This document shows positions 5,884 through 17,520 of a stretch of 64,000 nucleotides of DNA, one piece after another. The DNA lies in contig NZ_RCWZ01000001.1 in the NCBI RefSeq assembly GCF_003675385.1, positions 806,001 to 870,000 on the forward strand, given 5' to 3'. How positions within the stretch are numbered: the stretch's first letter is position 1; each line of letters begins with the position of its first letter. The notes below the pieces were generated by a model. The model worked only from the letters and a program-made list of their open reading frames with translations, ran no database searches and was not told the DNA's origin. This stretch comes from Mucilaginibacter kameinonensis. Lineage in GTDB: Bacteria > Bacteroidota > Bacteroidia > Sphingobacteriales > Sphingobacteriaceae. The position numbers were made by a program, and so were the translations under genes.

Positions 5884-5991
5884 TTCCCCTCTTGAGAGGG
5901 GTGGAGGGGTGTGTTTCTGCTTTGATAAGTTAAGCGTATAAACACACCCCTGCTACCGCATGTTCCTCCGCGCCCCCTCTCAAGAGGGGAA
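5884..5991. repeat. 108-bp palindromic dispersed repeat, copy 1
   Basis: Bounded by an 18-bp perfect inverted repeat: TTCCCCTCTTGAGAGGGG at 5884-5901 and its complement at 5974-5991. A second, inner inverted pair is GGGGTGTGTTT / AAACACACCCC. The reverse complement of this unit aligns with 16355-16664 (once the insertion there is removed) with about 8 mismatches in 106 by eye. Both copies are followed some 25 bp later by CTCAAGTTAACGG (6018-6030 here), and both lie just past the stop codon of a minus-strand gene. Non-coding; probably a mobile palindromic unit or a degenerate MITE. Confidence 0.8.
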
Positions 5992-15075: not shown

Positions 15076-16284
15076 ATGATCATGAAAAATATCTGCCGTT
15101 ATATAATCGCTTTTATCTTATTGTTGACCGGACAAATAAGCCTGGCCCAGCAGAAACAATTTAACCAGGGTAAAAGGGTAGTGATCATTATGATGGACGG
15201 TTTTGGCATGAGTTATTTTAATAATGCCCCTATGCCGCATTTAAAAGCTATGATTGCCAAAGGCTTTTTTAAACAGGTTAACGCTTTAATGCCAACAGTT
15301 ACCAATGCCAACAATACTTCAATTTGCACAGGCACCTTTCCGGAAGTAAACGGCATCAGCGGAAACTTCTTTTTAAATGACAAGGGTGAGGAAGAATACA
15401 TGGAGGATAAGCACCTGGTGCTTGCCCCTACCATTTTTCAAAAGTTGAAAGCGGATGGGATTAAATCGGCGCTAATCTCCAGCAAAAAGAAAAGCACCAC
15501 GCTGCTGCCCGAAGGTGCCGATATTGTAGTATCGCCGGAAACAACCGATACCTCATGGACAAATAAGATAGGCACGCCTGCAAGTATTTACAGTGCCGAA
15601 GTAAATTACTGGACAATGAAGGCCGGCATCTATTTGCTTAAAAACCGTAAGGACATCCGTTGTATCTATATCCATACTACCGATTATCCGATGCATACCT
15701 GGGCACCTGCGGATAGTAATTCTATCAGGCATTTAACTAATATTGATAACCTGATAGGCCTGATCAGTGAAACGGCTCCCGATGCTACCATCCTCATCAC
15801 TGCCGATCATGACGTGAACCATAAAAGTCGCTGCATAGATGTGAAGAAAGCGTTGCAGTTGCAGCATGTTGATATTAAACTGGCGCTAAGCCCTGAGAAA
15901 GATAAATATGTAAAGCATCACCGTGGCTTTGGCGGCGCTGCTTATGTTTATCAGGGTAAAGATGATCTCCCGGAAGTAAAAAAGGCACTATATAAAATTA
16001 AGGGTGTTGAAACAGTACTTACCCGTGCCGAGGCAGCTAAAAAATATCACCTCCCGCCTGCGAGGATAAGTGATCTTGTTGTGCTTGGTGATTCGACCAC
16101 CGTTTTTGGCGACCTGGAAAGCAGCCCAGAAGAAGAGCTACCGGAAACTTACCGAAGCCATGGTTCTGTTTATGAGATAAAAGTGCCGATAATTATTCTG
16201 AATGCTGCTAAAATGCCGCCTGCCTCATACTTTAATTATAATAAAGACCTGGCAGCATGGCTTACGGATAAGAAATATTGGTAG
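15076..16284 (+). CDS. Exported phosphonoacetate-hydrolase-like enzyme (alkaline phosphatase superfamily)
   Basis: 402 residues, signal peptide about 3-25 (CRYIIAFILLLTGQISLAQQ). The order of motifs follows phosphonoacetate hydrolase PhnA: MMDGFG (metal Asp), PTVTNANNTSICTGTFPEVNGISGN with the nucleophile Thr, TTDYPMHTWAP (Asp and His), ITADHDVNHKS (Asp-His) and YRSHGS (last His). All seven metal/catalytic residues seem present, so it should be active on a phosphonate or phosphodiester. Known PhnA enzymes are cytoplasmic; export is unusual. No other phosphonate genes are adjacent. The ATG at 15082 is an equally good start. Phosphonoacetate as the actual substrate is a guess. Confidence 0.8.
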   Translation: MIMKNICRYIIAFILLLTGQISLAQQKQFNQGKRVVIIMMDGFGMSYFNNAPMPHLKAMIAKGFFKQVNALMPTVTNANNTSICTGTFPEVNGISGNFFLNDKGEEEYMEDKHLVLAPTIFQKLKADGIKSALISSKKKSTTLLPEGADIVVSPETTDTSWTNKIGTPASIYSAEVNYWTMKAGIYLLKNRKDIRCIYIHTTDYPMHTWAPADSNSIRHLTNIDNLIGLISETAPDATILITADHDVNHKSRCIDVKKALQLQHVDIKLALSPEKDKYVKHHRGFGGAAYVYQGKDDLPEVKKALYKIKGVETVLTRAEAAKKYHLPPARISDLVVLGDSTTVFGDLESSPEEELPETYRSHGSVYEIKVPIIILNAAKMPPASYFNYNKDLAAWLTDKKYW

Positions 16285-16354: not shown

Positions 16355-16664
16355 TCCCCTCTTGAGAGGGGGCGCGAAGGAATGAGCGATAGCAGGGGTG
16401 TGTTTATACGATTAGCTTATCAAAGCAGAAACACACCCCTACACCCCTCTCAAGAGCAGGGCTGTTGCATTCTAAAACATATAACGCAAGTTCAAGCGTC
16501 TTTCGCTTGAATAATAACCAAAGTAAGCGTCCACGCTTACGTCTATAACGTATTACGGGAGCGTGGACGCTCAATTAAGGCTAACGATCAAGCGTAGACG
16601 CTTAATCGTGCGAGTTTTTAAGAACTCAATATTAGAATGCAACAGCCCTGCTCTCAAGAGGGGA
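16355..16664. repeat. Palindromic dispersed repeat, copy 2, split by an insertion
   Basis: Opens TCCCCTCTTGAGAGGGG at 16355 and closes with CTCTCAAGAGGGGA ending at 16664. Without the 194-bp insert and one copy of the 10-bp duplication it is 106 bp and matches the reverse complement of 5884-5991 with about 8 mismatches. The opposite orientation of the two copies and their shared position past a minus-strand stop codon suggest repeated transposition to gene ends. Confidence 0.8.
16457..16650. mobile_element. 194-bp non-autonomous element (MITE) with 19-bp inverted ends and 10-bp target duplication
   Basis: Left end CAGGGCTGTTGCATTCTAA (16457-16475) is exactly complementary to the right end (16632-16650). 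It is flanked by perfect direct repeats CTCTCAAGAG at 16447-16456 and 16651-16660, which is the footprint of insertion into the older palindromic repeat. It has no coding capacity. The interior carries several AAGCGT/ACGCTT dyads, for example GTAAGCGTCCACGCTTAC near 16523-16540 and GAGCGTGGACGCTC near 16559-16572. A 10-bp duplication fits DDE transposases such as the IS4 superfamily; the partner transposase is not in this window. Confidence 0.88.
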
Positions 16665-16737: not shown

Positions 16738-17520
16738 CTATTCCCCCTTAAACTCCGCTTTACGTTTTTCCGTAAAGGCGGCCACTCCCTCTTTAAAATC
16801 TTTGGTGCCGAAGCTTTTGCCAAATTCTGTTATTTCGGTTTCATAGCCGTTAACCCCATCGGTATATGCGGCGTTGATACAGCGAATGGCGGCAGCAAGT
16901 GCTAAAGGTGCGCGGGTTAATATTTTGTTCAGGATCTCTTCGGCTTTGGTTAACAACTCTTCGGGAATAGTTACATGGGTAACCAGGCCATATTGCAAGG
17001 CATCGGCAGCGGTGATCATATCGGCGGTGAGGATCATTTCCATGGCTTTGCCTTTGCCAATCAGTTGTGTGAGGCGCTGCGTGCCGCCATAACCGGGCAT
17101 CAGTCCCAAAGTTACTTCGGGCAGGCCCATTTTAGCGTTATCGGATGCTATGCGGATATGACAAGCCATGGCCAGCTCAAGTCCACCGCCTAAAGCAAAG
17201 CCATTTACTGCCGCTATTACTGGTTTATTGCCATTGGCTATCAGGTCAAAAACTTCGGTATGGCCTTTGCGTGAAAGCTGCGCCCCTCCTTCAACATCCA
17301 GTGCCGCGAACTCACTGATATCTGCACCCGCAACAAATGCTTTTGGTCCTGCACCGGTGATGATGATACCGCCAACGTCCGGATTTTGAAATGCCTCAGC
17401 AAATGCGGTATGCAGTTCGGCAAGGGTATCTTTATTAAGGGCATTCAGTTTGCTTTCGCGGTTGATGGTGATGTATTGAATACGCTCTTTATTTGCTATC
17501 AATAAGTTTTGAAATTCCAT
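16738..17520 (-). CDS. Enoyl-CoA hydratase/isomerase (crotonase) family protein
   Basis: 260 residues, the normal crotonase length. The oxyanion-hole region AFVAGADISEF and the catalytic block NGFALGGGLELAMACHIRIA (first Glu) plus GLPEVTLGLMPGYGGTQRL (second Glu) are all present, so hydratase activity on short-chain enoyl-CoA (3-hydroxybutyryl-CoA dehydratase-like) is the likeliest. It stands alone with no beta-oxidation partners beside it. The two Glu residues separate it from inactive or isomerase-only relatives. Confidence 0.92.
   Translation of the reverse strand: MEFQNLLIANKERIQYITINRESKLNALNKDTLAELHTAFAEAFQNPDVGGIIITGAGPKAFVAGADISEFAALDVEGGAQLSRKGHTEVFDLIANGNKPVIAAVNGFALGGGLELAMACHIRIASDNAKMGLPEVTLGLMPGYGGTQRLTQLIGKGKAMEMILTADMITAADALQYGLVTHVTIPEELLTKAEEILNKILTRAPLALAAAIRCINAAYTDGVNGYETEITEFGKSFGTKDFKEGVAAFTEKRKAEFKGE

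Follow-up and report, generated by a model that had tools for sequence, protein, structure and literature searches.

Several insertion sequences (IS) are known to target REP repeats, among them ISPsy8, ISPa11, ISPpu9, ISPpu10, ISRm22 and ISRm19 (Tobes and Pareja 2006, PMC1525189). The accessible part of that article names IS3, IS110, IS4, IS256 and IS5 as REP-targeting families, and ISAs1 does not occur in it (0 occurrences). For ISPlr1 of Planktothrix, a member of the ISAs1 family, direction by REP-like repeats has been proposed in the available portion of a further report (PMC9366434). The idea of a repeat-directed ISAs1 element is thus not wholly new. Duplications of ~10 bp, roughly one helical turn, are described for IS231A and the IS4 family, some members of which have conserved target arms (PMC2266710, in extract). 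Programmed frameshifting is assigned to IS1, IS3, IS5 and IS630 (Atkins et al. 2016, PMC5009743); in the sections of this source at hand, ISAs1 is not among the frameshifting families named and has 0 occurrences. The same count of 0 holds for ISAs1 in the accessible text of a review of prokaryotic MITEs (PMC10969869), and the available parts of PMC3281130 and PMC5756416 contain no ISAs1 frameshift or palindrome targeting. Within the open-licence literature, a search for Mucilaginibacter and MITE yielded nothing on mobile DNA by title, and a search combining the genus with insertion sequence, transposase and repeats gave no matches.

Here, we describe a MITE of Mucilaginibacter kameinonensis (genome G000), the hairpin repeat into which it has inserted, and a family of IS from congeners that carry the same ends.

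A MITE in one arm of a hairpin repeat

The window, i.e. the whole stretch of 64,000 nucleotides that was analysed, contains a non-autonomous MITE of 194 bp (16457..16650, without strand assignment), delimited by sequence, repeat search, empty site and translation. It lies between two open frames, one ending at 16284 on the plus strand and the other spanning 16738-17520 on the minus strand. Its left terminal inverted repeat, CAGGGCTGTTGCATTCTAA (16457..16475, plus strand), is identical to the ends of the compared IS copies from the congeners G374 and G329. The right one (16632..16650, minus strand) is its exact reverse complement, so that the inverted repeats are perfect over 19 bp. An exact 10-bp target-site duplication, CTCTCAAGAG, flanks the element on the left (16447..16456, plus strand) and on the right (16651..16660, plus strand). 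An earlier note, made from the letters of this DNA, had described both the 194-bp element with its perfect 19-bp ends and the exact direct repeats around it, with coordinates that proved right to the base. In the inverted-repeat search of the window, the pair extends to 32 nt at 94% (16444-16475/16632-16663) because the target itself is nearly palindromic.

The note had also called the interior non-coding, and translation in six frames indeed gave no plausible gene within the 194 bp. Folded as a single strand, the element reaches -56.9 kcal/mol versus a shuffle mean of -20.75 (sd 3.04, n=200), corresponding to z = -11.89. A comparison with Rfam returned three matches, all well under their gathering scores. 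The element thus combines the features of a MITE: it is short, has inverted ends and no coding capacity, occurs in dispersed copies, shows a duplication with an empty site, and shares its ends with an autonomous element.

The target is one arm of an older palindromic repeat, as the note had recognised. Pattern and inverted-repeat searches locate an intact left arm, the 16-bp palindrome CCCCTCTTGAGAGGGG, at 16356..16371, and the inverted-repeat search an inner stem-loop, AGGGGTGTGTTT ... AAACACACCCCT, at 16394..16440, with its stem at 16394-16405/16429-16440. The right arm, CCC CTCTCAAGAG GGG, is split by the MITE and now spans 16444..16663; none of the three parts is assigned a strand. The arms pair at 100% (16359-16371/16444-16456). 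The host hairpin repeat is also present in the window at 5886-5989; as in the one at 16356-16371, its 16-bp palindromic arms surround a GGGGTGTGTTT...AAACACACCCC stem.

Across the 7.33 Mb of G000, the intact palindrome CCCCTCTNNAGAGGGG occurs 86 times and the reversed pattern not at all (0). Sites of the form CCCC-N8-GGGG with any centre number 108, versus 23 for the control. The 15 genomes counted hold 8-108 intact arm palindromes each, with 11 in G329. Read from the outside to the inside of the hairpin, all 11 of the 11 pattern-found arms have a TG centre (464 kb of G000 and 400 kb of G374).

A probable ISAs1-family helper in congeners

The note had suggested a search for a full-length IS with the same ends. 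Such elements, 1151-1163 bp long and flanked by 10-bp duplications, are found in three congeners, G374 (17 copies), G357 (12 copies) and G329 (2 copies), and not in G000. The two halves of their transposase score 108.8 and 148.7 bits against the ISAs1 family model NF033564 (curated cut-off 70), with Pfam matches to DDE_Tnp_1_assoc and DDE_Tnp_1. Members of the ISAs1 family duplicate 8-10 bp of their target. The helper IS falls within this range, with an exact 10-bp duplication at 39 of 52 elements when IS and MITEs are taken together. This agrees with the note's view that a 10-bp duplication points to families making 9-12-bp duplications.

An autonomous partner was not found in G000 by 19-mer (up to 3 mismatches), protein or family-model search. 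At E <= 0.001, there was no ISAs1 match in G000, G306, M. endophyticus RS1 (G313), M. gossypiicola Gh-48 (G309), Mucilaginibacter sp. SMC90 (G335), G332 or G326. All seven carry the MITE, remnants of it or a sister element, and by this search the helper is not visible in them. The MITE is nonetheless very probably moved in trans by an ISAs1-family transposase, one that was not found in G000; what ties it to the IS is limited to the shared ends, target and duplication.

Two observations extend the occurrence of the IS ends. In M. flavus CECT 7857 (G353), several contigs stop within an element whose first bases, judged by eye, are similar to the G374 IS end; this genome is therefore likely to have a collapsed IS. 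Beyond the named Mucilaginibacter records, the marine Bacteroidetes MAG Dive100_bin10.8 (L266:7941) has the same IS end adjoining CTCCTTGGAGGGG. The sequence before this end resembles the C-terminus of the helper transposase; there is no evident full transposase frame upstream, and a second end was not found at this locus.

Target choice and duplications

We measured 52 two-ended elements, comprising 31 IS and 21 shorter ones. L085, L089-L095, L173-L175, L204 and L205 do not have two recognisable ends and were left out; two further MITE places in G374 are likewise not among the 52. At least two pairs in this set, L003/L077 and L076/L086, are orthologous insertions counted twice.

Most measured copies sit at the centre of a palindromic arm, CCC-CTCT(TG/CA/CG)AGAG-GGG, of the dispersed hairpin repeat. 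The duplicated sequence is CTCTNNAGAG in 33 of the 39 exact cases, in the arm variants CTCTCAAGAG (12), CTCTCGAGAG (11) and CTCTTGAGAG (10), and it follows the local arm variant, both sides alike. The six remaining exact targets are CCCTTGGGAG, CTGTTAAAAG, CCCCCTATAG, CTCCCAAGAG, CCCTGAAGAG and CTTTTAGTTG. Every exact duplication starts with C and ends with G (39/39), and in 34 of the 39 it is preceded by CCC and followed by GGG.

Insertions in CTCTNNAGAG, or within 2 bases of it, account for all four MITEs of G000 (4/4), all IS of G374 (17/17), 11 of the 12 IS of G357 and neither of the two in G329 (0/2). Since G000 has only 86 intact palindromes in 7.33 Mb, the rough chance of finding all four of its copies inside them is 2e-20. 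In G374, the arm palindrome makes up 45 of 71 intact CCCC-N8-GGGG sites, and 15 of 17 IS are in CTCTNNAGAG; the resulting preference for the arm beyond CCCC-N8-GGGG (~0.003 by rough estimate) is only suggestive. Three exact targets, the two of G329 and one of G357, are something other than arm sequence, and the G329 sites have runs of C and G. The hairpin repeat as such thus does not seem to be needed. Probably, the transposase recognises a symmetric target of roughly CCCC-N8-GGGG, for which the hairpin repeat is the commonest source.

A rival reading is that the transposase responds to secondary structure, attacking the host repeat when it is extruded as a hairpin or cruciform, regardless of sequence. 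Most copies do lie in arms of a strong hairpin repeat, and in three of three cases (L002, L159 and L160) the copy with the reversed centre is on the inner side, a pattern that might point to an exchange of strands inside the hairpin. However, exact targets without the CTCT..AGAG interior keep their C and G ends (CTGTTAAAAG and CCCCCTATAG in G329, CTTTTAGTTG in G357 and CCCTTGGGAG in G335), and the G335 target CCCTTGGGAG sits in a hairpin repeat of different sequence. Moreover, insertion occurs at the dyad centre of one arm, not at the tip or base of the hairpin, and the duplications are regular 10-bp copies. We therefore regard attack on an extruded structure as unlikely. The earlier note had spoken of structure-guided target choice: its placement of the insertion in a palindromic arm holds, and the habit is better described as recognition of a symmetric sequence, as nothing shows that a hairpin or cruciform is needed.

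If symmetric sequence recognition is correct, the transposase would bind the 19-bp ends, pair them, and attack the symmetric CCCC-N8-GGGG at positions staggered by 10 bp about the dyad axis. The gaps would then be filled by host repair, giving rise to the 10-bp duplication. Insertion into intergenic palindromic repeats would keep the harm to the host small.

The duplication is inexact in 13 of the 52 elements, ten of which differ by one or two bases, a small shift or an indel. In L002, L159 and L160, the flanks differ in the central TG/CA only, with two extra bases beyond in L002, and the reversed centre is on the hairpin-core side in all three. L167 and L169 have one base different at the centre, and L087 one base elsewhere. 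A shift by one base is seen in L078, L196 and L199, and L088 is shifted as its first terminal bases are missing. In L076 and L086, which represent one orthologous insertion, the left flank is more altered. The 408-bp pair L203 probably does not represent a single element. A simple duplication does not account for the reversed TG/CA centres; they may have been copied from the partner arm.

The same CTCTYRAGAG palindrome is bordered by a second repeat family, whose ends resemble TAATAGCCCATNATTRGACA, in four of five contexts (L207:2796 in G313, L095:892 and L089:832 in G309, position 613 on the minus strand of L081 in G335, and L237:19199 in G000 were the five inspected). An unrelated mobile element may thus use the same landing site.

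A conserved -1 split in the helper transposase

The helper transposase is not encoded by a single frame. In all 31 of 31 IS copies, the N- and C-terminal halves are in separate open frames, of 190-204 aa and 189-213 aa, respectively. In five copies from three species that were read closely, the -1 change falls at an eight-A run, CAAAAAAAAC. Here, the junction reads TGY-CAA-AAA-AAA-C and lies between LDALHCQKK and TV, with the second frame at -1. Taking the catalytic residues from the family motifs, we presume that it separates the second catalytic aspartate from the glutamate. Other full-length-looking ISAs1 transposases of the order occupy a single frame of ~367-424 aa; among these, the G190 protein has an internal stop, and several shorter ones look truncated.

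The split in all copies, placed at one eight-A run in the five read closely, and the conservation of both frames make programmed -1 recoding likely, be it ribosomal or transcriptional. The ribosome or the RNA polymerase would slip by one base on the eight-A run, and only then would a complete transposase be made. The need for slippage would keep transposition rare, and the upstream product alone, without the catalytic glutamate, may be inactive or inhibitory.

Alternatively, the frame break could reflect degeneration, in which case all IS copies would be dead and the MITE family extinct. An unsplit version of the helper subfamily was indeed not seen in 149 genomes of the genus or 400 of the order. 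Yet the break falls on one and the same CAAAAAAAAC in all three species, with first-half proteins 70-73% identical to that of G374, and purifying selection acts on both frames, with pN of 0.17-0.26 vs pS of 0.67-0.90 over the two. In addition, seven more G374 copies are set apart from the first by just 3-4 substitutions, without any indel (8/17 copies compared), indicating that these near-identical copies spread recently in the split form. We thus consider degeneration improbable, and more so than attack on an extruded hairpin, and favour recoding.

Copies, empty site and age

Further copies of the MITE, for which the note had proposed searching the genome and its relatives, are present in G000 and in five congeners. 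G000 has four 214-bp copies at 94-100% identity, all on contig C1, which are 95-98% identical to each other. The 19-mer end, with up to 3 mismatches, matches 10 times in this genome, representing four MITE pairs and two lone matches with 3 mismatches, and the reversed 19-mer used as a control has 0 matches. The four copies and the unmatched control argue that the MITE is not a chance pattern.

Two-ended copies with the same interior occur in G306, G309, G313, G335 and G374. G332 has one-ended remnants, and G326 carries an element of 172 bp in which the same ends enclose a different interior. A 22-mer (GAGAG plus the end, up to 3 mismatches) is found in 13 of 149 genomes of the genus, including G000; the single matches in G270 and G340, at 2-3 mismatches, may be chance. 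In the wider family, the 19-mer with up to 2 mismatches matches 15 of 301 genomes, G000 included, the other 14 having one match each, versus 4 of 301 for the reversed 19-mer.

The orthologous place in G306 is empty: it is without exactly the 194 bp and one CTCTCAAGAG, as the note had expected of such a site. Both sides align, with 94-95% identity between the near flanks in the window and those of the empty site. G313 lacks the MITE at this place as well, but the place differs in other respects and has another insert, located between CTCTTGAGAG and CTCTCGTGAGAG. Two other insertions each occur in two species: L003/L077 in G000 and G306 (92.5% over 1609 bp), and L076/L086 in G313 and G309 (90.3% over 1570 bp). 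This indicates that part of the MITE family is old. The transposition had been called recent. This fits the insertion in the window, which G306 lacks, and does not fit the family as a whole, since copies within G000 differ by 2-5% and two insertions are common to two species each. Alternatively, the MITE could belong to the host repeat, as a 214-bp unit with CTCTCAAGAG included that spreads by homologous recombination and without any transposase. This would suit the match of the four own-genome copies over 214 bp, flanks included, and the insertions common to different species. It is hardly credible, however, given that the flanking 10-mer varies by site and matches on both sides (CCCTTGGGAG, CTCTCGAGAG, CTCTTGAGAG and CTGTTAAAAG) with nearly fixed ends, that G306 has an exact empty site, and that the same ends bound an element coding for a transposase.

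IS ends around a foreign repeat

The earlier note had drawn attention to AAGCGT/ACGCTT dyads in the interior of the MITE. These dyads are real, and they belong to a separate dispersed repeat that the element carries as cargo. This repeat, here called B, is ~125 bp long, contains four dyads of the AAGCGT...ACGCTT type, occupies 16488..16612 (no strand assigned) and is also found alone in G000 and congeners. MITE positions 32-156 match stand-alone G000 repeats at 71-90% in nine loci compared (L005-L010, L013, L015 and L016). Matches to the 194 bp were present in 42 of 100 Mucilaginibacter genomes, chiefly through repeat B.

Five IS copies were compared with the MITE. Those of G374 and G329 have 20-21 bp in common with it at each end; those of G357 share 15 bp at one end and, at the opposite one, 19 bp, in one copy with a single mismatch. 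Elsewhere, the comparison gave only 9-bp chance matches. Origin of the MITE by internal deletion of the IS was considered and rejected, as only the terminal 15-21 bp are shared and the interior is repeat B. This points instead to a foreign repeat between two IS ends: two ends would have come to flank an unrelated dispersed repeat, giving rise to the MITE without a deletion inside the IS. Such a case leads to nested repeats, which complicate annotation and assembly, as the M. flavus contigs that stop within the element illustrate.

Discussion

Taken together, these data link a non-coding repeat that had been an orphan to a defined transposase and a defined target of 16 bp, which makes target recognition by an ISAs1 enzyme directly testable. 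On balance, we lean towards a picture in which a subfamily of ISAs1 combines programmed -1 recoding with a symmetric CCCC-N8-GGGG target. A genus-wide hairpin repeat would thereby serve as a safe landing pad for the IS, for MITEs with a foreign repeat inside, and perhaps for a second, unrelated family (ends TAATAGCCCAT...). The helper may be listed in ISfinder. Recoding in ISAs1 has no report in the open-licence literature, among the matches listed, so that within this scope the helper would probably be an instance of transposition controlled by recoding, in a family without reported examples. The IS families with programmed frameshifting resemble it in that their transposase is made via a frame change, often into -1, as far as the accessible part of the review goes (PMC5009743).

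With respect to its targets, the system is akin to the REP-targeting IS, copies of which interrupt a dispersed palindromic repeat at a single fixed position (PMC1525189, part of the text). In contrast to what that part describes, MITEs share the habit here, and the target is a 16-bp arm of a longer hairpin repeat, which is at most a putative REP in the strict sense. For ISPlr1, the proposal made in the available portion of the report concerns distant gene clusters and specifies neither a fixed insertion point nor a duplication (PMC9366434). IS4 elements differ from the helper in their transposase family, and a single-ORF transposase is their hallmark in the extract available (PMC2266710). Compared with the ISAs1 family itself, both halves of the helper transposase are over the cut-off of NF033564 and the duplication is 10 bp; unlike in that family, the transposase is split by a conserved -1 change and targeting of the palindrome is tight. 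The MITE and the IS are thus a new pair of a known family, with tight palindrome targeting and the conserved -1 split as variant features, and they would add a family to those that use palindromic repeats as landing pads.
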